Of a stretch of DNA of 41,146 nt, positions 20,354 through 38,801 are shown piece by piece. The position numbers and the translations under genes are program-made. Source of the DNA: Zoogloea sp. (GTDB taxonomy: Bacteria > Pseudomonadota > Gammaproteobacteria > Burkholderiales > Rhodocyclaceae); the NCBI GenBank assembly GCA_023150095.1, contig JAKLLO010000020.1:1-41146 (forward strand). The letters run 5' to 3'. Positions within the stretch are counted from its first letter, which is position 1, and the number at the start of each line of letters is the position of its first letter. Under the pieces are notes generated by a model. The model searched no databases. It worked only from the letters and a program-made list of their open reading frames with translations, and was not told where the DNA came from.

Positions 20354-21370
20354 TCAACGCTTGCCGGCGATCTCCCGGGCGCCTTCGGCCAGGCGCGCGC
20401 CGTCGAGGCCCTTGTCCTTCACCTGCTTCACCCACTCGTCCTGTACCGTCGCCGAGGCCTTGCGCAGGGCGTCCATCTCGGCCGGGCTGTACTCGGCGAT
20501 CTTGTTGCCCAGGCTCAGCACCTTCTTGTGGGCGGCCTTGTTCTCGTCGTCGAACACGGTGCCGAGCCGATCCACCAGCGGCGCGCCGGAGTGCTTGTCC
20601 ACGATGGCCTTGAGGTCGGCGGGCAGCGCGTCGTACTTCTGTTTGTTCATCAGTACCGTCAGCACGGTGGCGGTCGGGTACGGCTGGCCGGCGGGCGGCT
20701 GGACGTGGAACTTCGCCACTTCGGAGAGTTTGGTCGGTACGACCATTTCCCACGCGCCGAGGGCGCCATCCACCACACCCTTGGAGATCGCCTCGGTCAC
20801 CTGGGCCGGCGGCATGGCCACCGGCGCACCTCCCAGGGCGGCGATGGTCTTGGCACCCAGGCGGGTCGAGCTGCGCACCTTGAGCCCCTTCCAGTCGGCC
20901 AGGCCCTTCACTTCCTTGCTGGCGGTGTTGAGCGCCTGGCCGCCATCCACGTGGAAAGCCAGCACCTTGTAGGCCGAGAACTCCGGCTGGGCAAACTGCT
21001 GGTAGTACTTCCACACCGCGCGGCTGCCCGAGGTCGCGTCGGCCACCATGAAGGGCAGCTCGAAGGCCTCGATGGCCGGGAAGCGACCGGCGGAGTAGCC
21101 CGGCGCCGTCCACACCACGTCGGCGATGCCGTTCTTCACCTGATCCACCAGCTGGCCCGGCGTGCCGCCCAGCTGCATGGCCGGGAAGAACTGACAGGCG
21201 ATGCGGCCGCCGGATTCCTTCTTCATCTCCTCGCACCAGGGCATCAACACCTTTTGCTGGGTGGGCACCGCCGGCGGCAGGAAATGGGCGATCTTGAGCG
21301 TGACTTCTTGGGCCACCGCGGGAAGCGCGGCGCCCAGCACGGCCATCGCCAGCAGATTCTTGATGTTCAT
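20354..21370 (-). CDS. dctP: TRAP transporter periplasmic solute-binding protein
   Basis: This is the periplasmic binding component of a TRAP transporter. The protein is 338 residues. The signal peptide MNIKNLLAMAVLGAALPAVA is followed by mature QEVTLKIAHFLPP. The DctP family core is visible: GGTPGQLVDQVKNGIADVVW, GAKTIAALGGAPVAMPPAQV and EAISKGVVDGALGAWE. The family binds carboxylates through a conserved Arg, probably in the KVRSSTRLG stretch. The cognate membrane subunits dctQ/dctM are not adjacent but lie about 15.5 kb away at the head of the hpa operon; their promoter carries the same operator pair (see regulatory entries). I infer uptake of an aryl-acetate such as 4-hydroxyphenylacetate. 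The start has an excellent AGGAGGAGAC ribosome site. Confidence 0.92.
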   Translation of the reverse strand: MNIKNLLAMAVLGAALPAVAQEVTLKIAHFLPPAVPTQQKVLMPWCEEMKKESGGRIACQFFPAMQLGGTPGQLVDQVKNGIADVVWTAPGYSAGRFPAIEAFELPFMVADATSGSRAVWKYYQQFAQPEFSAYKVLAFHVDGGQALNTASKEVKGLADWKGLKVRSSTRLGAKTIAALGGAPVAMPPAQVTEAISKGVVDGALGAWEMVVPTKLSEVAKFHVQPPAGQPYPTATVLTVLMNKQKYDALPADLKAIVDKHSGAPLVDRLGTVFDDENKAAHKKVLSLGNKIAEYSPAEMDALRKASATVQDEWVKQVKDKGLDGARLAEGAREIAGKR

Positions 21371-21406: not shown

Positions 21407-21452
21407 TTACTAATATGCGAGCAATTAAAACACTAAGATGTTAGCAATACAA
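21407..21452 (-). promoter_or_regulatory. dctP promoter with two HpaR-like operators
   Basis: On the minus strand a -35-like TTGTAT (21447-21452) and a -10-like TTTAAT (21424-21429) are 17 bp apart. Palindromic sites CTAAGATGTTAG (21433-21444) in the spacer and CTAATATGCGAG (21410-21421) just downstream of the -10 have centres 23 bp apart. The first is identical to a site in the dctQ promoter. A bound MarR-type protein here would block RNA polymerase. The -35 is weak (TTG only), so the promoter call rests partly on the operator context. Confidence 0.65.
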
Positions 21453-21482: not shown

Positions 21483-22541
21483 TCAGACCCGCTTGAACAG
21501 CGGGCTGCGGGCCTGCTGGGCGTCGGCGGCGGAGAAGAACTTCTCGGTGTAGATGTCCCGCTCGAACAGCCGACCCTGCATCAGCGCGGTGATGCACGCC
21601 TCGATCATCACCGGCGGGCCACACAGGTAGGCCTTGTGGCCGCGGAAGTCGTTGTCGAAGCAGGCTTTGGCCGCTTCATGCACATAGCCCCGGAAGCCCG
21701 TCCAGCCGCTGTCGGCCGGTTCGTCGGAGAGCGCCGGCACGTAGGTGAAGCCGGGATGGCGGGCGGCGAGCGCGGCGAACTCATCGTGGTAATACAGCTC
21801 CTGCCGGTTGCGGGCGCCGTAGATGAGGGTGATCGGCTGCGCGCTGCCGGTGGCGATGAGATCGAGGATCATCGAGCGTGGGCTGGACAGCCCCGAGCCG
21901 CCAGCCATGAAGATCGACGGCAGGCCGGCCGAGGCATGGACGAAGAAGCGCCCGTAAGGCCCACTGAGCTTGAGCGTGTCGCCAGCCTTGAGGGATTCGT
22001 GAATCCAGGTGGTGCCCTGCCCGCCTGGCACCCGCCGGATGTTGAGCTCGAGCTCGTCCGTGCCCGGCGGATTGGCCAGCGAGAAGGCCCGATGCCCGAT
22101 GCCGTCGGGCAGTTCGAGGTTGATGTACTGGCCGGCCTGAAAATCCAGCACCTCGCCGCCCTCCAGCCGGAGCCAGATGCCCTTGATCGTCGGCGTCAGG
22201 TCTTCGATGCGCGTCACCACGCCAGTGAAGTCGCGCACCGGCAGGTTGCGGGAATCCTCGTCGATCTCGATGTCGGCCTCGATGACGGTGTCGGATTCGA
22301 GCGTGGCGCAGCAGGCGAGGCACAGGCCGTCGCTGCGTTCGGAATCCATCAGCGCAAAGCCGGTCGCGCGGCCGTGGTCCACCTCGCCGTCCAGAACGCG
22401 GATCTTGCAGGTGGCGCAGTAGCCCTGACTGCAGGCGTGGGGCAGATAGACGCCGGCGCGCAGGGCGGCGTCGAGGATGGTCTGGCCTTCTTCCACCTCG
22501 ATGGTCTGGCCGAGGGGTTGGATGGTGAGTTCGTAGCTCAT
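21483..22541 (-). CDS. dmpP: Phenol hydroxylase-type reductase component (P subunit)
   Basis: This is the electron-transfer reductase of a multicomponent monooxygenase: NADH to FAD to [2Fe-2S] to the diiron hydroxylase. The protein is 352 residues, the DmpP length. The N-terminal plant-type ferredoxin domain has C37-x4-C42-x2-C45 (HACSQGYCATCK) and a further cysteine cluster at 74-78 (LCLACCA). The FAD domain shows RAFSLANPP, and the NAD domain MAGGSGLSSPRSM and YLCGPPVMIEAC. The start at 22541 is chosen (MSYELTIQP), not the longer frame that would run into the gap after the O subunit gene. It is the last of six minus-strand genes in the K-L-M-N-O-P order, with dctP under its own promoter about 110 bp downstream. 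Confidence 0.93.
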   Translation of the reverse strand: MSYELTIQPLGQTIEVEEGQTILDAALRAGVYLPHACSQGYCATCKIRVLDGEVDHGRATGFALMDSERSDGLCLACCATLESDTVIEADIEIDEDSRNLPVRDFTGVVTRIEDLTPTIKGIWLRLEGGEVLDFQAGQYINLELPDGIGHRAFSLANPPGTDELELNIRRVPGGQGTTWIHESLKAGDTLKLSGPYGRFFVHASAGLPSIFMAGGSGLSSPRSMILDLIATGSAQPITLIYGARNRQELYYHDEFAALAARHPGFTYVPALSDEPADSGWTGFRGYVHEAAKACFDNDFRGHKAYLCGPPVMIEACITALMQGRLFERDIYTEKFFSAADAQQARSPLFKRV

Positions 22542-22634
22542 GGGAAAATCTCTCTCCAAAAGATCGAGGACCGGGCGGCCCACCTGCGCGGGCCGCGCGA
22601 TCCTCGATGGGGTCGGGATGACCGGCGGGATCGG

Positions 22635-22994
22635 TCAGTAGCCCGAGCCGGCGATGCCGTCGAGGCCCGGCGTAGTGAAGCGGATCAGGTCCTTGTGGCC
22701 GATGCCGTTCTCCGCGAGGCTCTTGGCCGGATCAGGCGAGAACACGGTGTTCGAGTTCTGCCAGACCACCGTGCGCCAGTCGATCTGCGCCCAGTCTGGG
22801 TGGTAGCTGAAGCAGTCGGTCATGTATTTGTCGGTCACCACCGAGAACGGCGTCTCCGGCGGCAGCGCCAGCACGAAGGGGCGGGAGAACATCCGGTGGC
22901 GCTCCCAGTTGATGAACAGGAGCTGCTTGCCGCGGTAGTTGGCCAGCGCGTCGCGGGACGGAAAATCGTAGGGGGCCAGGGTTTTCAGGCTCAT
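22635..22994 (-). CDS. dmpO: Phenol hydroxylase-type gamma subunit (O subunit)
   Basis: This small subunit belongs to the diiron hydroxylase heterohexamer (L2N2O2). The protein is 119 residues. It resembles the DmpO/PhO family: YDFPSRDALANYRGKQLLFI, HRMFSRPFVLALPPETPFSV, DWRTVVWQNSNTVFSPD and a terminal GHKDLIRFTTPGL. It has no cofactor of its own; it packs against the N subunit. The start at 22994 (MSLKTL) is preceded by GAGGAGACC. It follows the N subunit gene closely (10 bp), as in the classical phenol hydroxylase operons. Confidence 0.9.
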   Translation of the reverse strand: MSLKTLAPYDFPSRDALANYRGKQLLFINWERHRMFSRPFVLALPPETPFSVVTDKYMTDCFSYHPDWAQIDWRTVVWQNSNTVFSPDPAKSLAENGIGHKDLIRFTTPGLDGIAGSGY

Positions 22995-23004
22995 CGCGGT
23001 CTCC

Positions 23005-24549
23005 TCAGTTTCTGGTGGCCAGGTGGCGCCAGGCGGCAAAGTTCTTCTGGTCTTCCGAGCCGTTGAAGTCGCCGGTGGCCCGCTTGTCGAGGCGCCAGTA
23101 TTCGGCGATGTGGGCGCCGGGGTTGAAGTCCGGCGCGGTCACATCGACGCCTTCCGGTGCGCAGTTGCCCTGCAGGGCCTGGTTGGACGAGATGTAGGTC
23201 TGGACGTACTTCTCGGGCTCGTGCTCGAAGATCTCCTTGCAGTGGTCCGAGCAGAAATGGAACTTCTCGCCCTTGTAAGTGGTTTCGCGGAAGCAGGTGT
23301 TCATCGGGTCGCCCGGCTCGTTGAACTTGATGGTGGACACGCACACCTGGCAGTTCATCGGCTGGGTGCGGTTGTTGAAGCGGTTGCCGGCCTTCTCCTG
23401 GGCGGCCCAGTACTCGTACACCGGGCGGTAGTACTTGTCGAAGGTGTCCGGATACTTGGCGGACAGCCAGTCCAGCTCGTCGGGTTCGGGGATCCAGGTG
23501 TGGAAGGGCGTGGCGTCGGGCTTCATGTAGAAGCCGATCCACGACTGGTGGGTGACGTGCTCCTTCTCCTCGATGGTCTGGTTGAAGCACTTGGGCACCG
23601 TGATGCCATAGCGGGCCAGATCGTTGAACAGTGCCGCGCCGTTCTGCTCGAAGTAGATCTCCCAGGCTTCCTTGAAGCTCATGATCCGCTTGGGCAGCAT
23701 GTAGTCCATCATCATCCCCACCGAAGCCAGCTTGCGGGTGCCGCGCCAGGTCCATTTGTCGATCCAGCGCTGGACGATGGGGAGGTTGTCCGGGTCCTGC
23801 TCGAGCATGAACTTGATGCACTCGAGGCCCAGCGTCATGTGGCGGGCTTCGTCCGACTGGGCCGAGAAGCCGACGGTCATCGCTGCCATGTCGCCGTTGT
23901 AGGCCGCACCCGAGATGAAGGGCACGAACAGGATGTTGGTGAGCACGTACTCGAAGGCAAAGCCGATCGCCACCATGAACTCGAAGGGCCCGGCGGTGAT
24001 GGCGTCGTCGAAGAAGGATTTGCCGTCCGACAGGTACCACATGCGCGACTGCTGGTGCGCGAACTCGTCCATCCCGTGGTAGTACTTATTGTAGTTGGAG
24101 ATGGAGTGGATCTGGGTCTGGAAGTGGCGGTATTCGTCCACCGCCTGCATCTGGCAGGCCACCCGCGGGCCGGCGCCGACCATCTGCCGGCCAACCATCG
24201 AGAAGCCCCGCGCGGCCATCAGCTCGAGCGGCGGCGTCGAGCCCAGGAAGAGCTTGAGCACGTTCATGTAGCGGGCGTCGGTGACCGACAGGTGCCCGTT
24301 GTTCTGGTTGAACGCGTCGAGGATGGCGTAGAGCTTGCGCTCCTTTTCGGACTGGTATTTCCAGTAGGCGTCCATCGTCAGCCGGAACGGGTCTTCCCAC
24401 TTGTCCCAGTCGTGGATCTTGATGCCCTCGTAGCTCACCTGCGGGAAGACCTTGTCCATCGGCTGGTAGGTCGTGTCCCACGCGAGGTCGCGGGTCATCA
24501 GGGTGTAGCGCTCCTTGAGGCCGAGCTTCTTGGCGACTTTCATGTCCAT
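23005..24549 (-). CDS. dmpN: Phenol hydroxylase-type alpha subunit, diiron oxygenase (N subunit)
   Basis: This is the catalytic subunit of a bacterial multicomponent monooxygenase, which uses O2 and a carboxylate-bridged diiron centre to hydroxylate an aromatic ring. The protein is 514 residues. The six ligand set is intact: E109 (PPLELM), E139-x-x-H142 (VDEYRHFQ), E200 (FAFEYVLTN) and E234-x-x-H237 (QSDEARHMT). A C-terminal YHS-type metal-binding region has Cys pairs (NCQVC near 400, FCSDHC near 432). Compared with CF600 DmpN as I recall it, residues next to the ligands differ (LELMAARGF for LEYQAFQGF, DEYRHFQ for DELRHVQ), hinting at another substrate. Its context beside hpaA and the homoprotocatechuate genes suggests 4-hydroxyphenylacetate or a relative, by inference only. 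Confidence 0.95.
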   Translation of the reverse strand: MDMKVAKKLGLKERYTLMTRDLAWDTTYQPMDKVFPQVSYEGIKIHDWDKWEDPFRLTMDAYWKYQSEKERKLYAILDAFNQNNGHLSVTDARYMNVLKLFLGSTPPLELMAARGFSMVGRQMVGAGPRVACQMQAVDEYRHFQTQIHSISNYNKYYHGMDEFAHQQSRMWYLSDGKSFFDDAITAGPFEFMVAIGFAFEYVLTNILFVPFISGAAYNGDMAAMTVGFSAQSDEARHMTLGLECIKFMLEQDPDNLPIVQRWIDKWTWRGTRKLASVGMMMDYMLPKRIMSFKEAWEIYFEQNGAALFNDLARYGITVPKCFNQTIEEKEHVTHQSWIGFYMKPDATPFHTWIPEPDELDWLSAKYPDTFDKYYRPVYEYWAAQEKAGNRFNNRTQPMNCQVCVSTIKFNEPGDPMNTCFRETTYKGEKFHFCSDHCKEIFEHEPEKYVQTYISSNQALQGNCAPEGVDVTAPDFNPGAHIAEYWRLDKRATGDFNGSEDQKNFAAWRHLATRN

Positions 24550-24572
24550 GTTTGTCTCCTTGGGGGCCGGAA

Positions 24573-24842
24573 TCAGCTGTTCCAGCTCAGGGTGAATTCG
24601 TCGTCGGTTTCGTCCAGGTGGCCCGAGATGGTGATGAGGTGCAGCTGCAGCTCCTGCAGGTCGAAGTCGCGGCCCATCTTTTCTTCCACCGTCTCGCGGC
24701 GGATCACCAGCCGGCCGGGCACGTCCACCTTCACCATGGCCGGCTGGTCGCTGACGATGGCGCCGGGGTTGTCGTCGAGGATGGCCTCGACGATGCAGCG
24801 GGTTTCTTCGTTCTTCTGGAACGCGATGAATGCGTTGGACAT
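24573..24842 (-). CDS. dmpM: Phenol hydroxylase-type regulatory/coupling protein (M subunit)
   Basis: This cofactor-free effector protein of the MmoB/DmpM family binds the hydroxylase and gates O2 and electron coupling. The protein is 89 residues (DmpM is about 90). Visible family features are AFIAFQKNEETRCIVEAILD, NPGAIVSDQPAMVKVDVPG and the EEKMGRDFDLQELQLHLITI segment. It lies 9 bp after the L gene and 23 bp before the N gene. A strong AAGGAAG ribosome site precedes the ATG at 24842. Confidence 0.92.
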   Translation of the reverse strand: MSNAFIAFQKNEETRCIVEAILDDNPGAIVSDQPAMVKVDVPGRLVIRRETVEEKMGRDFDLQELQLHLITISGHLDETDDEFTLSWNS

Positions 24843-24851
24843 GGCGCTTCC

Positions 24852-25844
24852 TTAAAGGGTGATGCCGGCCTTGGCGGCGCGGGCTTCAAGCTGGCGGGTG
24901 ATCTCGGCGAGCACGGAGTCGCCGTCATCACCAAAGGCCAGGGTGGCCACCGGCGCCAGGGCTTCGGCAGCCCGGTCGCGCCAGGCGGCGATCCACTCGG
25001 CGAGCTGCGCCTTGTTGGCCGGGTTGTCGGCGGCGGCGGCCTTCAACTGGGCGTCGATCCACTTCACGTTCTCGGCGTACCACTCGCGCTGGAAGCGGGT
25101 GAGCATCGAGAACACCGGGCCGTGGGTGGCGTTGAGGAGATCGTTGTAGCGCTCGTACACCAGCGGGAAGAGCAGCCCGTTGAGCACGAAATCCTGGGCA
25201 ACCAGCACCTGGAACCAGTCCTTCTCGACCATCAGGTCTTCCACGTAGCGCCGCAGGCCCTGCCACTCGACGGCGCCCAGCCAGGCGGCCTTGGCCTCGG
25301 CCAGCGCATCCACATCGCCAAAGGCCATGCCGAGCCGGGTGACGTACTGGGCGATGCCGAGCTGGTCCATGCTGGCGTAACAGGTGGCCTGGGCGATGGC
25401 GATGCCGTAGCTGTAGGCGGCCACATAGCTGTCGTTGATGTTGGCGCCCCAGGCCACGTGGCGCAGGGGCAGGAAGACCTTCAGCGCCGCATCGCGGCCG
25501 GCCGCGGGATAGCTGGCGGCAAGGCCGAGCTGATCCACCAGGTCGAAGTCACCTTCGGCGGTCTCCTGCATCCGGCCGCGAGCCTGCACCCAGGTGCCGT
25601 AGTAAAACTGGCGCGGGTCCTTCAGGGCGTACCAGTCCTGCATCGTGATCTTCGTGCGGGTGGCGTCGAAGATGTCGTGCTCCGGCGCCCAGGTCGGGCG
25701 GTAGTGGTAGTTCTCGGTGGGCTGCAGGTCCATCGTGGCTTCCAGGTAGCGGGAAGCCGGCTTGTCGGCGCCCATCCGCCGGGCCAGGTGGCCGAAGGTT
25801 TGCCGCAGGGGCGTGATGGTGACCGTGCGCAGGTCGATCTGCAT
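24852..25844 (-). CDS. dmpL: Phenol hydroxylase-type beta subunit (L subunit)
   Basis: This beta subunit of the diiron hydroxylase keeps the ferritin-like fold but lacks the iron ligands. The protein is 330 residues, the DmpL length. It opens MQIDLRTVTITPLRQTFGHL and contains ENYHYRPTWAPEHDIFDATRT, DWYALKDPRQFYYGTWVQ and RRYVEDLMVEKDWFQVLVAQ, all typical of the family. A GAGGAGGAGAC ribosome site precedes the start. It follows the K gene and precedes the M gene in the canonical order. Confidence 0.93.
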   Translation of the reverse strand: MQIDLRTVTITPLRQTFGHLARRMGADKPASRYLEATMDLQPTENYHYRPTWAPEHDIFDATRTKITMQDWYALKDPRQFYYGTWVQARGRMQETAEGDFDLVDQLGLAASYPAAGRDAALKVFLPLRHVAWGANINDSYVAAYSYGIAIAQATCYASMDQLGIAQYVTRLGMAFGDVDALAEAKAAWLGAVEWQGLRRYVEDLMVEKDWFQVLVAQDFVLNGLLFPLVYERYNDLLNATHGPVFSMLTRFQREWYAENVKWIDAQLKAAAADNPANKAQLAEWIAAWRDRAAEALAPVATLAFGDDGDSVLAEITRQLEARAAKAGITL

Positions 25845-25919
25845 GGTGTGTCTCCTCCTCGGGGGTTCGTCCGGCGGCGGGCGGTTGCCCGGCCGGGTTC
25901 GTTTTAGGTGTGGGGTGGA

Positions 25920-26198
25920 TCAGCGGAAGCGCTGATGGGTCGCGTCGTGCAGGCGCCAGGCCCAGTCGGTGGCGGGGCCGGCGGGCCGATCGGCGCCCTC
26001 CCCGTCCAGAAACACCACCTGATTGGCGGCGCAGAATTCGCCGAAGGCGGCCCGGGGCATCATCAGCTCGACGGCCATCTCCGGCTCGCCCACCGAGAAC
26101 TCGAAAGCCACCAGCCCGTCGTCGCGGGCCTCGATCACCCGCACGTAGCGGCGGGTGAGGTCGAAGGCGTGTCGTGCCATGTCTGTCTCCTCCGACAC
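25920..26198 (-). CDS. dmpK: Phenol hydroxylase-type assembly protein (K subunit)
   Basis: The first gene of the six-gene monooxygenase operon encodes 92 residues. DmpK-type proteins are not part of the turnover complex but bind the hydroxylase and are thought to help assemble the active diiron form. The sequence (DLTRRYVRVIEARDDGLVAF, then EFSVGEPEMAVELMMPRAAF) fits the family. Its Shine-Dalgarno CGGAGGAGAC is strong. A MarR-type operator lies about 65-75 bp upstream (core 26263-26274), and the hpaA stop is about 120 bp upstream. Confidence 0.88.
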   Translation of the reverse strand: MSEETDMARHAFDLTRRYVRVIEARDDGLVAFEFSVGEPEMAVELMMPRAAFGEFCAANQVVFLDGEGADRPAGPATDWAWRLHDATHQRFR

Positions 26199-26260
26199 GC
26201 CGCCACCGCCTGGCTGGTTGCCCGACTGAGGGGCGTGTTCATGGCAGCCATTTCACCAAA

Positions 26261-26279
26261 CATTAATATGTTAGTGAAT
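26261..26279 (-). promoter_or_regulatory. HpaR-like operator upstream of the dmpK operon
   Basis: CATTAATATGTTAGTGAAT contains the palindrome core TTAATATGTTAG (26263-26274), differing from the dctP/dctQ site CTAAGATGTTAG at two positions. It lies 65 bp upstream of dmpK in the short gap after hpaA. No second site 23 bp away was found here. A shorter perfect inverted repeat ATGGC-A-GCCAT sits at 26241-26251, between the operator and the gene. Confidence 0.65.
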
Positions 26280-26317
26280 GGATGTTCTGGAGCTTGACTT
26301 GTACTTTTCGGAGGTTT

Positions 26318-27244
26318 TCAGCCGGCGGTGCCGCTGTGGTGCTGCTGGCGGAACTGGCTGGGCGAGTTGCCCGTGCGCTGGGCGAAGAAGCGCGAGAAAT
26401 ACGCCGGATCGGCAAAGCCCAGCTGGTCGCTGATCTCGCCGACGGGCGTCGAGGAAAACCGCAGGAGGCGCCGCGCCTCCTGCAGCAGACGGTCGTGGAC
26501 CACCTCTTTCGAGGCCAGGTTGGCGATGCGCCGGCACACGTCGTTGAGCCGGGCTTCGGTGACGGCCAGCTCGCGGGCGTACTCGGAGAGCGTGATGTGC
26601 TCGCGAAAGTGCGCTTCGACCAGATCGCAGAAGCCGAGGAAGATCCGCACGTCCTCGCCCCGCTTCATCTTGAGCGGCGACGCCGGCAGCTCGGCCTGGA
26701 GCAGCCGGTTGAAGCTCACGAAGAAGCACAGCCCGAGGGCGTTGAGCACCGCCGAGCGGCCTTGCCCGCGGGCCACGAACTCGTCGCGCATCAGCGCAGC
26801 CAGCGCAAACAGCCGCTCGATCTCGGGCTTGAGCGCCGCGTCGGTGTTGCCCAGCAGCATGAAAGCCGGGTCGCGCAGCTGGGCCTCGGGCCACAGCCCG
26901 GCGGTCGAGGCGTGCCAGCCGCGCACCACCTCCTGGCGCACGGTGATCACGTGGCCGTCGGTGTCTTCTTCAGAGTAGAACGCGTGGGGCACCGCCGGCG
27001 GCGTGAGGAAGGCCAGCGGCGCGTCGCCGCAGTAAACCTGGTCGTCCAGATGGAGCTGGATCTTGCCCCGGGTGAGCAGATGCACCTGATAGAAGCGCGA
27101 ATGCCGGTGGGCCGGGGTGTTGCGGCCGAAGATCTCGGCCATCCGGCTGAAGGTCTCGCAGTGAACATCGCAATCCGGATCGCCCGCATCGTAGGTGCGG
27201 CTGATGTAGATGTCCGGAATGTTGCGCGCGGCGGTCGGCGGCAT
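26318..27244 (-). CDS. hpaA: AraC-family activator of 4-hydroxyphenylacetate catabolism
   Basis: The protein is 308 residues. The N-terminal cupin sensor domain (about 1-120) reads PDIYISRTYD, HRHSRFYQVHLLTRGKIQLH and LAFLTPPAVPHAFYSEED with DGHVITVRQE. The C-terminal double helix-turn-helix (about 205-300) has EYARELAVTEARLNDVCRRI and SDQLGFADPAYFSRFF. These match E. coli HpaA as I recall it along the whole length. HpaA activates hpaBC (the hydroxylase genes) with 4-hydroxyphenylacetate as inducer. Here it is the last gene of the hpa/TRAP operon (8 bp after the MFS gene) and lies directly ahead of the dmp-type operon, the place where hpaBC would be expected. The start is the ATG at 27244. 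Confidence 0.88.
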   Translation of the reverse strand: MPPTAARNIPDIYISRTYDAGDPDCDVHCETFSRMAEIFGRNTPAHRHSRFYQVHLLTRGKIQLHLDDQVYCGDAPLAFLTPPAVPHAFYSEEDTDGHVITVRQEVVRGWHASTAGLWPEAQLRDPAFMLLGNTDAALKPEIERLFALAALMRDEFVARGQGRSAVLNALGLCFFVSFNRLLQAELPASPLKMKRGEDVRIFLGFCDLVEAHFREHITLSEYARELAVTEARLNDVCRRIANLASKEVVHDRLLQEARRLLRFSSTPVGEISDQLGFADPAYFSRFFAQRTGNSPSQFRQQHHSGTAG

Positions 27245-27252
27245 GGATGGCC

Positions 27253-28464
27253 TCAGCCCGACGCCCCGCCCTGCCCGCGCGTGGCGAGGCGATACAGCCC
27301 GTAACCCGCCGCCGACAGCGCGCACGCAAGCATCACCACCCAGGCCATCGGCCGCCCAGTGCCATCGTGAAAGCGGCTCACCCCGAAGCTCGCCAGCATC
27401 CCGAAGCCAAACTGGCTGGCGCCAAACAGGGCCGCCGCGGCGCCGGCGTTCTGGGGGAAGCGCGACATCAGCAGCCCCACGCAGTTGGCGCCCAGCAGCC
27501 CGGTGACGCTCACCACCACAAACAGGCTGGCGATCACCCCGGGCACAGAATCCGCCGCCATTGCCACCACCAGGGCCAGCGCACCGGCGAGCCCGGCCAG
27601 TGATCCGCCGCCGAGCATCTTCACCGGCCCCACGCGCTTCACCAGCCGGCTGTTGGTGTAGTTGGCCGCAAAGATGCCCACCGCGTTGGCGGCAAAGACG
27701 AGGCTGAAGCCGGTGGGCGAAAAGCCGTTCAGGTCGATGAAAAAATGGGGCCCGCCGGTGATGTAGGCGAACATTGCCGCGAACGACATGCCGCCGGCCA
27801 GCACCAGCCCCAGCGCCGCCGGCGTGACCAGCATCGTGCCGTAGGCGGCGAAGGCGCGGCCGATGGGCAGCTGACCGCGCTTGTCGGCCGGCAGGGTCTC
27901 GGGCAGCTTGCGCCACACCACGGCCAGACTCATCACGCCCCACAGCAGCAGCGCGGCAAAGGTCGCCCGCCAGCCCCACAGGGCCAGCACGCCGCTACCG
28001 ATGAGCGGCGCGAGCAAGGGCGCCACCGAGGTGACCATCGCCATCAGCGACAGCTTGCGGATCGCCTCGGTGGGCGAATAGACATCCCGCGCCACCGCCC
28101 GGGCCAGCACCGACGCCGACCCGCCGCCGATGGCCTGGAACAGCCGGGCGACGATCAGCTGCTCCACCGCACCGGCCAGCATGCAGGCGAGGCTCGCCAC
28201 CACGAACAGGCCGATCCCGCCGAGCATCACCCGGCGCCGGCCGTAGCGGTCGGAGATCGGGCCATAGAACAGCATCCCGAACGAAAACCCGGCAAGGAAC
28301 ACCGTGACCGACAGCTGCACCGCCTCGGGCGAGGCGGCCAGCCCCGCGGCCATTGCCGGCAGCGCGGGCAGGTAGAGGTCGATCGCCAGCGGCCCGAAGG
28401 CCACCAGCGCGCCCAGCAGCAGGACCAGCCCGCCTTCGCTGATCGTCGTGGCTTTGAAGCTCAC
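27253..28464 (-). CDS. Bcr/CflA-type MFS transporter
   Basis: This 403-residue, 12-segment membrane protein of the DHA1 drug-H+ antiporter group has FGPLAIDLYLPALPAMAAGL near the N-terminus (motif D1), GMLFYGPISDRYGRRRVMLG (motif A) and VARDVYSPTEAIRKLSLMAM. It lies between the gabD-like gene (13 bp) and hpaA (8 bp), so it is a member of the hpa operon. The known HpaX transporter belongs to a different MFS group, so an export role for a toxic catechol or aldehyde is as likely as import. The substrate is unknown. Confidence 0.85.
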   Translation of the reverse strand: MSFKATTISEGGLVLLLGALVAFGPLAIDLYLPALPAMAAGLAASPEAVQLSVTVFLAGFSFGMLFYGPISDRYGRRRVMLGGIGLFVVASLACMLAGAVEQLIVARLFQAIGGGSASVLARAVARDVYSPTEAIRKLSLMAMVTSVAPLLAPLIGSGVLALWGWRATFAALLLWGVMSLAVVWRKLPETLPADKRGQLPIGRAFAAYGTMLVTPAALGLVLAGGMSFAAMFAYITGGPHFFIDLNGFSPTGFSLVFAANAVGIFAANYTNSRLVKRVGPVKMLGGGSLAGLAGALALVVAMAADSVPGVIASLFVVVSVTGLLGANCVGLLMSRFPQNAGAAAALFGASQFGFGMLASFGVSRFHDGTGRPMAWVVMLACALSAAGYGLYRLATRGQGGASG

Positions 28465-28477
28465 CCGGGCACCCTGC

Positions 28478-29932
28478 TCACAGCCCGCCCAGGGCGAGGT
28501 ACTTGGTTTCCATGTACTCGTCGAGGCCGTGGCTGGAGCCTTCGCGGCCGATGCCCGAGAGCTTCACGCCGCCAAAGGGCGCCACCTCGGTGGAGATCAG
28601 CCCGGTGTTGATGCCCACCATGCCGTACTCCAGCTGGCGCGACACGCGCCACACCCGGGCGTGGTCCTTCGAGTAGAAATACGCCGCCAGGCCGAACTCG
28701 GTGTCGTTGGCCATGTGTATCGCCTCGTCCTCGGTCTTGAAGCGGAACAGCGGCGCCACCGGGCCGAAGATTTCCTCCTTCGCTACCGCCATCGCGGGGG
28801 TCACGTCGGCCAGCACGGTGGGCTCGTACCAGGTGCGACCGAGGGCATGGCGACGCCCGCCGGACACCGCCCGGGCGCCCTTGCCCAGCGCGTCGGCGAC
28901 GAGCTCCTCGACCTTGGCGATGGCCGCGTCGTCGATCAGCGGGCCCTGGGTGACGCCCTCCTCCAGCCCGTTGCCCACCTTGAGGCCGGCGACGGCCTCG
29001 GCCAGCCTGGCGGCGAAGGTGTCGTAGATGCCGTCCTGCACCAGGAAGCGGTTGGAGCACACGCAGGTCTGGCCGGCGTTGCGGTACTTGGAGGCGATGG
29101 CGCCGGCCACCGCGGCGTCCACGTCGGCGTCGTCGAAGACGATGAAGGGCGCGTTGCCGCCCAGCTCCAGCGACAGCTTCTTGATGGTGCCGGCGCACTG
29201 GGCCATCAGCAGCTTGCCCACCGGCGTGGAGCCGGTGAAGGTGAGCTTGCGCACGATGGGGCTGGCGGTCATCACGCCGCCGATGGCGCTGGCCTTGCCG
29301 GTGACGACGCTGAAAACGCCCTTCGGCACGCCGGCGCGCTCGGCCAGTTCGGCCAGGGCGAGGGCCGACAGGGGCGTCTGCTCGGCCGGCTTGAGGACGA
29401 TGGTGCAGCCCGCGGCCAGGGCCGGCGCCACCTTGCGGGTGATCATCGCCGACGGGAAGTTCCACGGGGTGATGGCTGCGCACACGCCCACCGGCTCCTT
29501 GGTCACGACGATCTGGCGATCCTTGAAGGGCGACGGGACGACCTCGCCGTAGGCGCGTTTGGCTTCCTCGGCAAACCATTCCACGTAGGCCGCGGCGTAG
29601 GCGATCTCGCCCTTGGCCTCGGCCAGCGGCTTGCCCTGCTCCAAGGTCATCAGCCGGCCCAGATCATCCTGGTTGCTCATCAGCAGGTCGAACCAGCGGC
29701 GCAGGATGCGGCTGCGCTCGGCGGCGGTGGTGTTGCGCCAGGTCTTGAGGGCCTGGTCGGCGGCGGCGATGGCGCGCTCGGTTTCGGCGGCACCGCAGCG
29801 GGGTACGCTGGCGATGGTTTCGCCGGTGGCCGGGTTGGTGACGGCAATGGTCTCGCCGCTGTCGGCCGCCACCCAGGCGCCGTCGATGTAGCAGGCCTGG
29901 CGCAGCAGGGTCGGGTCTTGAAGGTTCAGCAT
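28478..29932 (-). CDS. gabD: NAD(P)-dependent succinate semialdehyde dehydrogenase
   Basis: This enzyme oxidises succinic semialdehyde, the product of HpaI, to succinate for the TCA cycle. The 484-residue aldehyde dehydrogenase has catalytic E256 (LSLELGGNAPF) and C290 (NAGQTCVCSNR), the cofactor loop FTGSTPVGK and GabD-style ITPWNFPSAMITRKVAPALA. It opens CYIDGAW like GabD. Its position right after hpaI fits the last step of the homoprotocatechuate pathway, a step for which E. coli uses Sad/GabD encoded elsewhere. The CVC pair (C290, C292) is the redox-switch pair typical of GabD proteins. The symbol is by family; sad is an alternative. Confidence 0.92.
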   Translation of the reverse strand: MLNLQDPTLLRQACYIDGAWVAADSGETIAVTNPATGETIASVPRCGAAETERAIAAADQALKTWRNTTAAERSRILRRWFDLLMSNQDDLGRLMTLEQGKPLAEAKGEIAYAAAYVEWFAEEAKRAYGEVVPSPFKDRQIVVTKEPVGVCAAITPWNFPSAMITRKVAPALAAGCTIVLKPAEQTPLSALALAELAERAGVPKGVFSVVTGKASAIGGVMTASPIVRKLTFTGSTPVGKLLMAQCAGTIKKLSLELGGNAPFIVFDDADVDAAVAGAIASKYRNAGQTCVCSNRFLVQDGIYDTFAARLAEAVAGLKVGNGLEEGVTQGPLIDDAAIAKVEELVADALGKGARAVSGGRRHALGRTWYEPTVLADVTPAMAVAKEEIFGPVAPLFRFKTEDEAIHMANDTEFGLAAYFYSKDHARVWRVSRQLEYGMVGINTGLISTEVAPFGGVKLSGIGREGSSHGLDEYMETKYLALGGL

Positions 29933-30026: not shown

Positions 30027-30824
30027 TCAATAAGCGGCGCCAGACTTGCCGGCGGAATCCTGCCTGAAGCGGGCGGCGAGCGTGGCGGCGGCGTTGCGCA
30101 GCAGCAGCGCATCGACCCCCACCAGCAGGAAGCGCGCGCCGATGGCCTGGTAAGCCGCGGCAATGGCCGGGTCGGCCGAGAACACGCCGGCAGCCTTGCC
30201 GCTGGCGGCGATCCGGGTGATCGCGTCTTCCACCGCGGCTTTCACGTCCGGGTGGCCGGGGTTGCCCAGGTGGCCCATGGACGCGGCGAGATCGGACGGG
30301 CCGATGAATACCGCGTCCACGCCATCCACCTTCAGGATGTCGTCGAGCCCGGCGAGGCCGGCGGTGGATTCGATCTGCACGATCAGGCACATCTCGCCGT
30401 CGGCCTGGGCGAAGTAGCCCTCGACGCCGTTCCAGCGGGCGGCGCGGGCCAGCGCAGTGCCCACGCCGCGGATGCCGTGGGGCGGATAGCGCATGGCGCG
30501 GACGAGGGATTCGGCCTCGGCGGCGGTCTCGACCATCGGCACCATCAGGGTCTGGGCGCCGCCGTCGAGGAGCTGCTTGATCCGCGCCACGTCGTGGTCG
30601 ACGGTGCGCACCACCGGCCGCACCGGGTACGGCGCCAGGGCCTGGAGCTGCTGGATGATGGAACGCAGGTCGTTGGGGCCGTGCTCGCCGTCGATCAACA
30701 GCCAGTCGAAGCCGGCGGTGGCGACCACCTCGGCGGCGTAGCCGTTGGCGAGGCCGAGGAACAGCCCGATCTGGGTCTCGCCCGCCTGCAGCGCGCGCTT
30801 GAAGTCGTTGCGGGGCATTTGCAT
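30027..30824 (-). CDS. hpaI: 4-hydroxy-2-oxoheptanedioate aldolase
   Basis: This class II (metal) aldolase cleaves 4-hydroxy-2-oxoheptane-1,7-dioate to pyruvate and succinic semialdehyde. The protein is 265 residues. HpcH/HpaI barrel motifs are visible: GLFLGLANGYAAEV, DWLLIDGEHGPNDLRS, PVVRTVDHDVARIKQLLDGG, TLMVPMVETAAEAESLV, MCLIVQIESTAGL (metal Glu) and DAVFIGPSDLAASMG (metal Asp). E. coli HpaI is of similar size. It begins 10 bp after hpaH and is followed by 94 bp without a gene before the gabD-like gene. The first ATG (30824) has AAGGAAA at good spacing. Confidence 0.94.
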   Translation of the reverse strand: MQMPRNDFKRALQAGETQIGLFLGLANGYAAEVVATAGFDWLLIDGEHGPNDLRSIIQQLQALAPYPVRPVVRTVDHDVARIKQLLDGGAQTLMVPMVETAAEAESLVRAMRYPPHGIRGVGTALARAARWNGVEGYFAQADGEMCLIVQIESTAGLAGLDDILKVDGVDAVFIGPSDLAASMGHLGNPGHPDVKAAVEDAITRIAASGKAAGVFSADPAIAAAYQAIGARFLLVGVDALLLRNAAATLAARFRQDSAGKSGAAY

Positions 30825-30834
30825 GGGGTTTCCT

Positions 30835-31638
30835 TCAGACGAAGCGGCAGGTGATGTTGCCCAGCGGGCCGTAGTCCACGTGGAAGGTGTCGCCGGCGTG
30901 CACCTTGACCGGCCGGGTGAAGGAGCCGGCGAGGATCACCTGCCCCGGCTCCAGCGCCACGCCGTGGGGCGCAAATTTTCTGGCGAGCCAGGCGATGCCG
31001 TTGGCCGGGTGGTTGAGCACACCGGCGGCGACGCCGGTTTCCTCGATCACGCCGTTGCGGTAGAGCAGCGCCGACACCCAGCGCAGATCCACGTCCATCG
31101 GCCGGATCGGCCGGCCGCCCATGATGATGCCCACATTGGCGGCGTTGTCGGAGATGGTGTCCATCACCTTGCGCGGGCGCCTGGTTTCGGGGTCGATGCG
31201 GTGGCAGCGGGCGTCGATGATCTCGACGGCCGGGATCACGTAGTCGGTGGCGGATAATACGTCAAGCATGTTGACGTTTTCGCCCTCCAGCCGCGCCTTG
31301 AGCACGAAGGCCAGCTCCACCTCGACCATCGGGTCGATGAAGCGGCTGACCGGAATGTCGCTGCCGTCCTTGAAGACCATGTCGTCGAGCAGCGTGCCGA
31401 AATCCGGCTCGTCGATCTGCGACGACTGCTGCATGGCCCGCGAGGTGAGGCCGATCTTGTGGCCGACGATCTTGCGGCCCTCGGCGAGCTTGAGCTTGAT
31501 CCACGCCTTCTGGATGGCGTAGGCGTCGGGGATGGTGATCTCCGGGTGGTCGAGGGAGATCTGGCGCACCGGCTGGCCGGATTTTTCGGCCCGGTGCAGG
31601 CGCAGTGCGGCGGCTTCGATGGTGGCTTGGTCGAGCAT
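30835..31638 (-). CDS. hpaH: 2-oxo-hept-3-ene-1,7-dioate hydratase
   Basis: This enzyme hydrates 2-oxohept-3-ene-1,7-dioate to the hydroxy acid cut by HpaI. The 267-residue product is the same length as E. coli HpaH. MhpD/HpaH family features are [57 protein letters not shown] (metal Glu pair), [17 protein letters not shown] and [13 protein letters not shown]. The ATG at 31638 is used since [11 protein letters not shown] is the usual start; the longer frame runs through the hpaF-hpaH gap. hpaF lies 22 bp upstream. Confidence 0.94.
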
Positions 31639-31660
31639 GGTATTTGTCCCTGTTATAGGT

Positions 31661-32050
31661 TCACGCCTTGCCATAACGGGCGTGGATATTGTTTTGCTTC
31701 CAGGTGCCGGCTTCGCTGAACTCACTGATCTCCATCGACAGGGCCAGGCCGCGGCGGGCAAAGATGTCCGCGAAGTGGGCCTTGATCATCTCGAAGAGTT
31801 CGTCGCCCGCCTTGCGGAGGGCGGCTTCGCTCCGACCGGCGCCCACCTTGAGGGTGGCATGCACGAAGGCGTCGTCGGCGCTGCCGTCGGCCACGCAGTA
31901 GTCGGAGAGGCGGATGGCGCGGGAGCGGATGCCGCCGATGGGAAACACGCCGCCCTGGTCGATGAGCACCTGGTTCGACTTGCGCAGCAGGCCGGCAATG
32001 TCGGCGTCACTGCCCAGGTTGTCGGTGTATTCGTAGATCAGATGGGGCAT
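31661..32050 (-). CDS. hpaF: 5-carboxymethyl-2-hydroxymuconate delta-isomerase
   Basis: This tautomerase-superfamily enzyme converts 5-carboxymethyl-2-hydroxymuconate into its oxo form (5-oxopent-3-ene-1,2,5-tricarboxylate). The protein is 129 residues. It starts Met-Pro-His ([10 protein letters not shown]), so the catalytic Pro becomes N-terminal after Met removal. It also has [14 protein letters not shown] and [14 protein letters not shown]. coli HpaF is about 126 residues and starts in the same way. A GGAGAG ribosome site precedes the ATG. It lies between the second dioxygenase gene and hpaH. Confidence 0.93.
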
Positions 32051-32080
32051 CAGCCTCTCCTTGGTGTGGCTTGGGTGGGT

Positions 32081-32977
32081 TCAGGAAACCGGCATCTCGA
32101 TGCCGAGGGGCCGGCTGGCGGCGGGGATGCCGGCCACCGGAAACTGCACGACGGTCTGGCCGGTGCCGGAGCTTTCGAAGTACGGGCAGACCACCTCGGC
32201 CTCACCCGTGAAGCCGTCCCAGCCCAGCGCGCCGAAGAGCATCGCGGTGTCGTGCATGCGGCCTTCGCCGGTGCAGTACTGGGCGTACTCGGGGAGCATC
32301 CGCAGGAAGGTCGCCCACTCGCCGGCCTGCCACAGGTCGAGCACGCGCAGGTCCACCTGCTTGTTGAACTCGCGGCTGATGGTGTTGAAGCCCTGCTCCA
32401 CCAGGCGGTTTTCCCAGATCTGGTGCGACAGCGAGCCGCTCGCCACCAGCGCCACGCGGCTGTCGCTGCGGGCCACCGCGCGGGCCACGGCCTCGCCGAC
32501 GATGCGCGATTCTTCGAGGCTGCCGAAGGTGCTCCAGCCGGCGATCGACACCACCTTGATGCGCCCTTCCGGGTTCATGTAGCGCATGGGCAGGATCGTG
32601 CCGTACTCGAGATCCAGCGACGCGACCTCGTGGGCGCGGGTCTTGACGCCCAGGGCGCTGGCCTCGTCGGCGATCAGCCGGCCGAGCTCCGGGTTGCCCG
32701 GAAAGTCGTAGGGCAGATCCTGGATGAAGTGGGGAAACTCGTGGCTGGTGTAGGTGCCGGCGTGGCGGGCGTTGTTGTTGATGTGGTAGCCGGCGTTCAC
32801 CAGCCAGTGGGTGTCGAACACGATGAAGGTGTCCACCCCCAGCTCGATGGCACGGCGGCCGATCTCCCGCTCGGCGTCGATGGCGGCCTGGCGGCAGCCG
32901 TGGGCCGGGCCGGGCTGCTCCGAGATGAGCATCGAAGGAACATGCGTGGCCTTCACGGCCAGAACGATTTCACCCAT
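32081..32977 (-). CDS. HpaD-like class III extradiol dioxygenase, second paralog
   Basis: This 298-residue LigB-type ring-cleavage dioxygenase closely follows a true hpaD. Iron and catalytic residues appear present: H12 (KATHVPSM), H57 (FDTHWLVNAGYHIN), the HIS of SGSLSHQIW and the Glu of TGEGRMHDTAML. Compared with the neighbour (33038-33886) it has a Pro-rich C-terminal extension of about 15 residues and many substitutions in the pocket-lining segments (for example NNNARHAGTYTSHEF for the region that reads NCAPQFEGIYTSNEL). It probably arose by tandem duplication, then diverged. It may cleave a related catechol; the substrate is not known. It has the same GGAGAC ribosome site as its neighbours. 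Confidence 0.85.
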   Translation of the reverse strand: MGEIVLAVKATHVPSMLISEQPGPAHGCRQAAIDAEREIGRRAIELGVDTFIVFDTHWLVNAGYHINNNARHAGTYTSHEFPHFIQDLPYDFPGNPELGRLIADEASALGVKTRAHEVASLDLEYGTILPMRYMNPEGRIKVVSIAGWSTFGSLEESRIVGEAVARAVARSDSRVALVASGSLSHQIWENRLVEQGFNTISREFNKQVDLRVLDLWQAGEWATFLRMLPEYAQYCTGEGRMHDTAMLFGALGWDGFTGEAEVVCPYFESSGTGQTVVQFPVAGIPAASRPLGIEMPVS

Positions 32978-33037
32978 GGGACGTGTCTCCTGATCTTGTT
33001 GGAATGGCTCTCTGTCCGGGCGCTGTTGCGGGTGTTT

Positions 33038-33886
33038 TCAAACGGGGAAGATGGCGTTGATCTGGCCGGTGCCGGAGCTGCCGAAGTACGGGGTGACGAC
33101 CTCGACCTTGCCCTGGTAGGCGTCCCAGCCCAGCGCGCCGAGGAGCATCGCGGTGTCGTGCATCATCCCTTCGCCGTGGCACTTGACCGCGTACTCGGGG
33201 AGCATCCCGCAGAAGGTCTGCCAGTCGCCGCGCTGCCACAGATCGACCACGTGGTGATCGACGGTCTCGAGGAAGGGGTTCCAAACCTTGTGGAGAAACT
33301 GCTCCGACACGCCGTTCTGGGCGAAGCGGTGGGACAGCGAACCGCTGGCGAGGATGGCCACGGTGCCGTCGCAGCGGGTCTCGATGGCCTCGCGCACGGC
33401 GGCGCCGAGCTTCGCGCTGTCGGCCAGGTCGTGCACCGTGCACAGGGCCGAAATCGACACCACCTTGAAGCGCTTGTCCTCGTTCATGTAGCGCATCGGC
33501 ACCAGGGTGCCGTATTCGAGGGAGAGCGTCGTGGCGTCGTGGGCGCGGGTGAGCACGCCGCCGGCGGTGGCGACATCGGCCATCGCCTGCCCCAGCGCCG
33601 GGTTGCCGGCGTAGGCGTAGGGCATGTTCCGGATGAAGTGCGGCAGTTCGTTGCTGGTGTAGATGCCCTCGAACTGCGGCGCGCAGTTGATGTGGTAGCC
33701 GGAATTCACCAGCCAGTGGGTGTCGAACACGACGATGGTGTCCACGCCCAGGTCACGGCAGCGCCGGGCGATCTCCCGGTGGCCGTCGATGGCGGCCTGG
33801 CGGCAGCCCTTGTGGGGGCCGTCGAGTTCCGACAGGTACATCGACGGCACGTGGGTGATCTTGGCGGCGAGTGCGAGCTTGCCCAT
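33038..33886 (-). CDS. hpaD: Homoprotocatechuate 2,3-dioxygenase
   Basis: This enzyme opens the ring of 3,4-dihydroxyphenylacetate, giving 5-carboxymethyl-2-hydroxymuconate semialdehyde. The protein is 282 residues, one less than E. coli HpaD, and it matches HpaD almost segment by segment (MGKLALAAKITHVPSMYLSE, FDTHWLVNSGYHINC, LEYGTLVPMRYMNEDKRFKV, VVSISALCTVHDLADS). H12, H57, the SGSLSHRF histidine and the CHGEGMMHDTAML glutamate form the expected iron site. The start at 33886 has AGGAGGAGAC. hpaE lies 23 bp upstream in the same operon, and the paralog follows 60 bp downstream. Confidence 0.95.
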   Translation of the reverse strand: MGKLALAAKITHVPSMYLSELDGPHKGCRQAAIDGHREIARRCRDLGVDTIVVFDTHWLVNSGYHINCAPQFEGIYTSNELPHFIRNMPYAYAGNPALGQAMADVATAGGVLTRAHDATTLSLEYGTLVPMRYMNEDKRFKVVSISALCTVHDLADSAKLGAAVREAIETRCDGTVAILASGSLSHRFAQNGVSEQFLHKVWNPFLETVDHHVVDLWQRGDWQTFCGMLPEYAVKCHGEGMMHDTAMLLGALGWDAYQGKVEVVTPYFGSSGTGQINAIFPV

Positions 33887-33909
33887 GGTGTTGTCTCCTC
33901 CTTCGGGGC

Positions 33910-35370: not shown

Positions 35371-35383
35371 GGGGCGTCCTTGA

Positions 35384-36157
35384 TTACGGGTGTGCCGCGG
35401 TGGCAAAGAAGCTTGGGTCGTCGACGATGTGATTGACGAGGCAGCCGATGCCTTCGATCTCCGTCTCGACGGTGTCGCCGGCTTTCACGTCGGCCAGGCC
35501 CTCGGGCGTGCCGGTGAGGATCACGTCGCCAGGCTTGAGCGTCATGAACGACGACAGGTATTCGATCAGCGTGGCGATGTCGAAGATCATGTCGGCGGTG
35601 CTGCCCTGCTGGGTGATCTGGCCATTCACGCGGGTGGTGAGCGCCAGCGCCATCGGGTCTGGCACGTCGTCGCGATCCACCAGCCACGGGCCCAGGGGTG
35701 TGCAGCCGTCGCGGTTCTTCACCCGCAGGTTGGGCCGGTAGTAGTTTTCGAGGTAGTCGCGGATGGCGTAGTCGTTGGCCACGGTATAGCCGGCGACGAT
35801 GTCCATCGCGTCGGCCTTCGACAGGCCCTTGCCGGCCTTGCCGATCACCACCGCCAGCTCGCACTCGTAGTGCATGTAGGTGGCGTCGGCCGGCCGGCGG
35901 GTGTTGGCCCGGTGGCCGATGACGGTGCTGGGGCCCTTCAGGAAGACCAGCGGCACCTCCGGCGCCTTGAAGGCGAGCTCCTTGGCGTGGTCGGCGTAGT
36001 TGAGGCCCAGCGCGAACACCGTGCCCACCGCCACCGGCGGCAGCCACACGAAGTCGCCCTCCTCCACCTGCCGGCCGTCGGCCAGGCGCACGCGGCCGTC
36101 GGTGCCTGGCGTCACCTGATGAATCGCGCCCTGCCAGGCGATGCGTCCGTGCTTCAT
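35384..36157 (-). CDS. hpaG2: HpaG C-terminal-type isomerase/decarboxylase subunit
   Basis: The 257-residue FAH-fold protein matches the C-terminal half of E. coli HpaG: FALGLNYADHAKELAFKAPE, MHYECELAVVIGKAGKGLSK, AGYTVANDYAIRDYLENYYR and LKPGDVILTGTPEGLADV. The metal site (Glu-x-Glu in YECEL and the Asp of NDYAIRD) is intact. It is one of the two polypeptides replacing the fused E. coli enzyme that decarboxylates and isomerises 5-oxopent-3-ene-1,2,5-tricarboxylate. Its start overlaps the hpaG1 stop by 4 bp (ATGA), so the two are translationally coupled, probably in 1:1 ratio. Confidence 0.92.
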   Translation of the reverse strand: MKHGRIAWQGAIHQVTPGTDGRVRLADGRQVEEGDFVWLPPVAVGTVFALGLNYADHAKELAFKAPEVPLVFLKGPSTVIGHRANTRRPADATYMHYECELAVVIGKAGKGLSKADAMDIVAGYTVANDYAIRDYLENYYRPNLRVKNRDGCTPLGPWLVDRDDVPDPMALALTTRVNGQITQQGSTADMIFDIATLIEYLSSFMTLKPGDVILTGTPEGLADVKAGDTVETEIEGIGCLVNHIVDDPSFFATAAHP

Positions 36158-38155: not shown

Positions 38156-38156
38156 C

Positions 38157-38756: not shown

Positions 38757-38801
38757 CACTAAGATGTTAGTAATTTAATCGCTAATATATTAATGAGTCA
38801 A
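38757..38801 (-). promoter_or_regulatory. dctQ-hpa operon promoter with two HpaR-like operators
   Basis: On the minus strand the -35 TTGACT (38796-38801) and -10 TTAAAT (38773-38778) are 17 bp apart. Palindromes CTAAGATGTTAG (38759-38770), which meets the downstream edge of the -10, and CTAATATATTAA (38782-38793), in the spacer, have centres 23 bp apart. The same layout and centre spacing occur at dctP. These are likely HpaR operators; hpaR starts divergently 67 bp away and is probably autoregulated from the same sites. Confidence 0.72.

Follow-up and report, generated by a model that had tools for sequence, protein, structure and literature searches.

The window analyzed here, 41,146 nucleotides of Zoogloea sp. 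DNA (contig JAKLLO010000020.1 of assembly GCA_023150095.1), carries a homoprotocatechuate meta pathway (hpa) and, directly after the activator gene hpaA, the operon dmpKLMNOP. We conclude that the product of this operon is probably a diiron monooxygenase with six components, of the phenol hydroxylase type, that stands in the place of the flavin-dependent HpaBC and converts hydroxyphenylacetate (HPA) to homoprotocatechuate; that is, an enzyme belonging by sequence to the phenol hydroxylase family most likely works as a hydroxyphenylacetate hydroxylase. The same substitution appears to have occurred in other Zoogloea and in some of their relatives. A replacement of HpaBC had been proposed in an earlier, sequence-only reading of the window, and the proposal gains support from the linkage to hpaA, an HpaR-type site ahead of dmpK, co-occurrence with HpaD, the separate clade to which DmpN belongs, and the lack of an HpaB match in the genome. 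One argument used for it, that no hpaB gene is linked to the pathway, proved to be weak.

An intact operon directly after hpaA

As had been claimed, a full set of K, L, M, N, O, and P genes follows hpaA, and all six components match their families. A 137-bp gap separates hpaA from dmpK, and dmpP is followed by dctP, all on the same strand:

26318-27244, minus strand: hpaA, AraC-family activator of hydroxyphenylacetate catabolism (TIGR02297, 285.7 bits versus a cutoff of 274.65)
25920-26180, minus strand: dmpK, phenol hydroxylase auxiliary component (PF06099, 97.6 bits)
24852-25844, minus strand: dmpL, hydroxylase beta subunit (PF02332, 185.9 bits)
24573-24842, minus strand: dmpM, effector protein (PF02406, 104.5 bits)
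23005-24549, minus strand: dmpN, alpha subunit of the diiron hydroxylase, with the complete set of six ligands (PF02332, 224.2 bits)
22635-22994, minus strand: dmpO, third hydroxylase subunit (PF04663, 85.3 bits)
21483-22541, minus strand: dmpP, ferredoxin-FAD reductase (Fer2, FAD_binding_6, and NAD_binding_1)
20354-21370, minus strand: dctP, solute-binding protein of a tripartite ATP-independent periplasmic (TRAP) transporter (PF03480, 172.6 bits)

The diiron ligands of DmpN (E109, E139, H142, E200, E234, and H237) are exactly those named beforehand, and the closest solved structure is the phenol hydroxylase PHN (2INN/3U52).

A separate DmpN clade that co-occurs with the hpa pathway

A survey of dmpN in 60 relatives and in 399 genomes drawn evenly from the order split the full-length matches into two groups, with 89 to 94% identity to the window protein in one and at most 70%, the level of other full-length phenol hydroxylases, in the second. 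Two more members from outside the named genus were found through a search with HpaA (L100, 89%; L101, 84%), giving the clade a range of 84 to 94%. In a tree of 46 sequences, its 16 full-length members were grouped with support of 100/100; the stem measures 0.53 changes per column and the internal branches are short, a shape suggestive of rapid early change and strong constraint thereafter. The counts below refer to 17 clade loci, namely, these 16 (including that of strain SB3) and G016, whose gene is fragmented; the 16 clade genomes that were searched comprise those of all 17 loci except SB3. Two contig-end fragments considered as clade intermediates, in G002 (296 residues, 74% identity) and G001 (88 residues, 82% identity), were rejected, being 99.7% and 96.6% identical, respectively, to ordinary dmpN. 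Within the clade, the window DmpN falls outside the group of other Zoogloea sequences (support of 90/71 at the dividing fork), and the layout of the window cluster resembles that of genus g41; together, these observations hint that the island may have been transferred horizontally.

The six diiron ligands are invariant in all 16 clade sequences and in all 30 others aligned. On alignment to toluene-4-monooxygenase (T4MO), the catalytic residues and most of the lining residues are kept in the clade, with three exceptions at positions that we take to lie near the pocket entrance, I100 and L272 presumably as entrance residues. T4MO I100 corresponds to Thr105 in 16/16 clade members (Ile, Val, or Phe in the others), L268 to Lys273 in 16/16 (hydrophobic in the others), and L272 to Ser276 in 15/16 (Leu in 28 of the 30 others). 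If the side chain of Lys273 reaches the pocket, it would suit a carboxylate. Fixed clade differences are also found in other parts of the chain, and the change is thus not confined to the pocket.

The clade and the hpa pathway occur together at each level sampled. Of the 23 genus genomes, the same seven had clade dmpN, HpaA orthologs (66 to 73% identity), and HpaH orthologs (at least 80%), and the best matches in the remaining 16 were 43% over a short stretch for HpaA and 41% for HpaH. HpaD_Fe exceeded its cutoff in all 16 clade genomes searched and in none of 12 non-clade genomes, which were hand-picked (10 from the same genus, several with ordinary phenol hydroxylases). For that reason, the even draw from the order is the fairer test: there, HpaD was found in 8/8 clade genomes versus 24/391 others (Fisher P = 7e-10), at an E-value limit of 1e-200 for dmpN, by which clade dmpN fragments would be missed.

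HpaR-type putative operators

The sequence-only reading had noticed an HpaR-like palindrome ahead of dmpK, and this element is real. When gaps across the window were compared, the 12-bp palindrome CTAANATNTTAG emerged, and CTAANATNTTARTR, with up to one mismatch allowed, has seven matches in the window versus 0.03 expected; with both strands counted, these correspond to four places, ahead of dmpK, ahead of dctP, and in the gap between dctQ and hpaR:

26263-26274, minus strand: HpaR-type putative operator CTAACATATTAA ahead of dmpK, the core of a longer palindrome (26252-26278)
21433-21444, minus strand: HpaR-type putative operator CTAACATCTTAG ahead of dctP
38759-38793, no strand assigned: two HpaR-type putative operators between dctQ and hpaR

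Published HpaR sites have the form TTAA-N4-TTAA (PMC7180172). The dmpK site, CTAA-CATA-TTAA, has this geometry, with letters that are close but not identical, and is a predicted operator.

Across relatives, with up to one mismatch allowed, a site stands no more than 220 bp ahead of dmpK in 14/17 clade operons (one mismatch in each), versus 0/12 ordinary phenol hydroxylase operons. It also precedes dctP in all 11 loci with enough upstream sequence (a twelfth, L132, has only 7 bp) and hpaG1 in five of the eight loci tested, two of these five being in non-clade comparators. As background, a 400-kb stretch of G342 outside the hpa region contained a single site, equal to 1 in 322 gene upstream regions. 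In G240, 2.6 Mb of a 3.96-Mb contig separates dmpN and the hpa genes (about 1.35 Mb if the contig is circular), yet a site is found 122 bp before dmpK and again 122 bp before hpaG1.

Linkage to hpaA and hpaR

In 11 of the 17 clade loci, hpaA lies directly ahead of dmpK, and in three more (G342, G146, and G398) it is within 10 kb; the operons of G240, G096, and G140 have no hpaA close by. Two loci, G253 and G434, show a single contiguous row, hpaR-hpaA-dmpKLMNOP-dctPQM-hpa, in an order unlike that of the window, and the other Zoogloea loci keep hpaR, hpaA, and dmpKLMNOP together, with hpaR beside hpaA in 6/6 loci that reach that far. Across these varied layouts, the association has thus withstood rearrangement. 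In G240, a gene for a PaaX equivalog (L123:10150-11094; 286.2 versus 264.55 bits) lies directly ahead of the clade operon.

Flavin-dependent hydroxylases in clade and comparator genomes

The source genome (G000, with the window as contig C272) is a 5.04-Mb assembly of 317 contigs, 88.84% complete and 5.86% contaminated. The sequence-only reading had called for a genome-wide check for hpaB, and at this level of completeness neither PF11794 nor PF03241 has a match (HpaC was not searched for). A PF03241 match was likewise lacking in 12/16 clade genomes (G000, G004, G010, G016, G435, and seven from outside the genus, three of these seven being single-contig assemblies). The matches in G011, G012, and G022 belong to a CoA dehydratase/isomerase-like family. 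Together with those of G006 and G014, they were considered as hidden HpaB proteins; the five form one family (70 to 97% mutually identical), are only 21 to 24% identical to the true HpaB of G134, and, in the case of G022, score 121.6 of 480.2 bits, with vinylacetyl-CoA isomerase and a dehydratase/isomerase of GABA (gamma-aminobutyrate) metabolism as best solved matches. On the basis of this mutual identity, the low score, and the isomerase-type structures, all five were rejected as HpaB.

Comparators were 24 genomes with HpaD and without clade dmpN, for which about 10 kb around HpaD was inspected (less for G227 and G403). Within this distance, HpaB was found in 1/24, a C1/C2-type flavin hydroxylase in 5/24, and neither in 18/24; a PF03241 match anywhere in the genome was found in 8/24. 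The five with C1/C2 p-hydroxyphenylacetate hydroxylase genes in their hpa clusters are G152 (L212), G288 (L217), G318 (L222), G402 (L229), and G044 (L206); C1 and C2 are both seen in G152, G288, and G044, and the stretches of G318 and G402 end within or after C2. Unrelated enzymes thus adjoin the hpa pathway in different lineages.

The remainder of the island

The island forms a minus-strand row with gaps of at most 94 bp, dctQ-dctM-hpaG1-hpaG2-hpaE-hpaD1-hpaD2-hpaF-hpaH-hpaI-gabD-MFS-hpaA, which continues into the operon described above; hpaR lies beyond dctQ, at the other end of the row, and is oriented the other way. The meta-pathway genes, gabD, hpaA, and hpaR are all located at or near the places given for them earlier:

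27253-29932, minus strand: major facilitator superfamily (MFS) transporter of the Bcr/CflA type and gabD, succinate-semialdehyde dehydrogenase
30027-36804, minus strand: hpaI, hpaH, hpaF, hpaD2, hpaD1, hpaE, hpaG2, and hpaG1, the homoprotocatechuate meta pathway
36827-38696, minus strand: dctM and dctQ, TRAP membrane components (dctM, PF06808, 295.3 bits)
38868-39344, plus strand: hpaR, MarR-family repressor (TIGR02337, 144.2 bits versus a cutoff of 121.2)

Curated cutoffs were passed by HpaA, HpaR, both copies of HpaD, HpaE, HpaH, and the C-terminal part of HpaG. HpaI, a near-full-length model match, falls half a bit short (368.3 versus 368.8), and the N-terminal part of HpaG (206.3 versus 228.65) and HpaF (129.5 versus 215) are also below their cutoffs but match nearly the full model. 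NCBIfam gave no match for dctQ, which was named from its position and conservation. The product of the window dctP likely binds the aromatic acid; a relative of dctP is found ahead of the hpa operon in several related loci.

The tandem HpaD genes (32081-32977 and about 33038-33886) are 58% identical, both above the curated cutoff; such a pair is also present in G240, G342, G253, G146, G398, G096, and G140, and six other clade Zoogloea genomes have one full HpaD each. Beyond hpaR, which it adjoins, lies a candidate outer-membrane protein of the Phenol_MetA_deg family (39505-40461), and a further open reading frame (40555-40941) contains two head-to-tail 4-oxalocrotonate tautomerase domains.

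Proposed function and alternative explanations

Electron transfer from DmpP to the DmpLNO hydroxylase and the coupling of these electrons to O2 activation by DmpM are established for the family. In the window enzyme, electrons from NADH would likewise pass via DmpP to DmpLNO, with DmpM linking their flow to the activation of O2 by the DmpN diiron site, and a hydroxyl group would be added beside the ring hydroxyl of 4-HPA (or 3-HPA), the predicted product being homoprotocatechuate. This would then be degraded by HpaD, HpaE, HpaG, HpaF, HpaH, HpaI, and GabD, and the acid itself might be taken up through the TRAP transporter. HpaA would activate the dmp operon, and HpaR would repress it at the palindrome ahead of dmpK; with both regulators acting in this way, the operon would be induced together with the meta operon.

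Several observations weigh against this proposal. The distance between the hpa and dmp operons is about 20 kb in G011 and 26 kb in G012, and the two lie on different contigs in G004, G010, G016, and G022. Neither hpaA nor an HpaR-type site is found near the dmp operon of G096 and G140; with at most one mismatch, G435 also lacks a site before dmpK, and hpaR is preceded by one in only 4/10 loci at one mismatch. The 14 of 17 operons with a site do not represent independent trials, since most of the loci are related and the consensus was derived from the window itself, dmpK site included. A gene for a toluene-monooxygenase-type alpha subunit follows the hpaA-dmp operon in G010 (L080:14367-15950) and G012 (L078:3400-4983). 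As for the competing flavin enzymes, G434 encodes, on a contig other than that of its hpa genes, an HpaB-like protein (649.7 of 885.2 bits, under the equivalog cutoff) whose best solved match is chlorophenol-4-monooxygenase and which we keep as an exception. C2 (NF045920) was not seen in the clade-locus stretches, and no genome-wide search for C1/C2 was made in the clade genomes. The absence of hpaB by itself proves little, because 18/24 comparators have neither HpaB nor C2 nearby, and for the same reason the lack of a linked hpaB was rejected as proof; 23/24 comparators are without HpaB within about 10 kb. Finally, the structure models of DmpN and DctP (mean predicted local distance difference test scores of 48.8 and 55.0) are too poor for substrate placement, so the pocket argument rests on the T4MO alignment.

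Could the operon encode an ordinary phenol or cresol hydroxylase, acquired beside the hpa genes, with its catechol products at best cometabolized and another hydroxylase starting HPA breakdown? All six components and the ligands fit the phenol hydroxylase family, the toluene-monooxygenase-type genes of G010 and G012 adjoin the operon, and the 18 comparators mentioned above suggest that the first enzyme of the pathway is often unlinked. We nevertheless consider this quite unlikely, given a separate clade with full HpaD co-occurrence, an hpaA neighbor in place of a DmpR-type gene, the HpaR-type site in 14/17 operons, and the co-clustered TRAP transporter; in addition, no catechol meta-cleavage gene was found among the window open reading frames scanned between 9832 and 40941. 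The source genome moreover contains, on contig C154, a second dmpKLMNOP beside a gene for an XylR_N/V4R/sigma-54 (DmpR/XylR-type) regulator, so phenol has a candidate enzyme of its own. Even less probable, to the point of being very doubtful, is that the clade merely tracks hpa lineages by descent or joint movement, with no functional link: 11 of the 16 clade genomes searched come from one family and the cluster may move as a block, but the clade genomes are spread over three or more families in the order (f1, f14, and f51), the operon stays with the pathway even where the two are unlinked (G240, G096, and G140), 16/23 genus members lack both, and the operator is shared.

A more serious alternative, which overlaps with the explanation that we favor and which we regard as possible though clearly second to it, is that the substrate is an HPA relative other than 4-HPA (for instance, 3-HPA, or phenylacetate hydroxylated twice), with 4-HPA being handled by another enzyme or more slowly. 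HpaA of Escherichia coli W responds to both 4-HPA and phenylacetate (PMC4468947), and the PaaX equivalog ahead of the operon in G240 is a hint of phenylacetate, albeit noticed in only one of the 17 loci. Double hydroxylation has a precedent in engineered toluene/o-xylene monooxygenase (ToMO), which converts 2-phenylethanol to tyrosol and hydroxytyrosol (PMC4411060). In its boldest form, which we rate as rather unlikely, the clade would be an arylacetic-acid diiron family that hydroxylates phenylacetate twice, via hydroxyphenylacetate to homoprotocatechuate, in a coenzyme A-free aerobic route beside paa; Lys273, Ser276, and Thr105 at the pocket entrance would then let the carboxylate enter and keep it bound.

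Among the papers listed by searches confined to an open-access library, none reported that HPA is broken down with the help of a diiron hydroxylase. A 2024 review describes the 4-HPA 3-hydroxylases as two-component flavin enzymes, and the word "diiron" is absent from its text (PMC10816480). If hydroxyphenylacetate is indeed the substrate, one step of a textbook pathway would be served by enzymes of three unrelated types (HpaBC, C1/C2, and a multicomponent monooxygenase with a diiron site), and the diiron family would gain a naturally occurring member that acts on a charged aromatic acid, a role new to the family. Such an enzyme could provide a template from nature for the production of catechol acids and hydroxytyrosol-like compounds and could account for some of the genomes in which an hpa pathway occurs but hpaB does not; dmpN-type marker genes would then not always indicate phenol degradation.

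Comparison with known systems

The window enzyme shares its six components, gene order, and diiron ligands with DmpKLMNOP and PHN (PDB 2INN and 3U52) but differs from them in its full-length identity (at most 70% in the genomes searched), separate clade, and changed pocket-entrance residues. The usual context of phenol hydroxylases, which does not define the enzyme, is a DmpR-type regulator and a catechol 2,3-dioxygenase; in five annotated plasmid loci, the dioxygenase was present in 5/5 and an annotated sigma-54 regulator in 2/5 within the stretch shown. In the window, hpaA, hpaR, and the hpa genes are found instead, with an HpaR-type site ahead of the operon and no adjacent catechol 2,3-dioxygenase found. 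Toluene/o-xylene and toluene-4-monooxygenases belong to the same superfamily as DmpN but have a different gene set, and DmpN shares 28% identity with the toluene-monooxygenase-type paralog of the source genome; 2-phenylethanol is accepted by engineered forms of ToMO. The p-HPA 3-hydroxylase C1/C2 (PDB 2JBR), found in the hpa clusters of five comparators, is an acyl-CoA-dehydrogenase-like flavoenzyme without a diiron site. HpaB, of which none was found in the source genome, is likewise an unrelated, flavin-dependent protein, yet HpaBC of E. coli W occupies the same slot in the pathway and has the same neighboring activator gene, hpaA, as the window enzyme.

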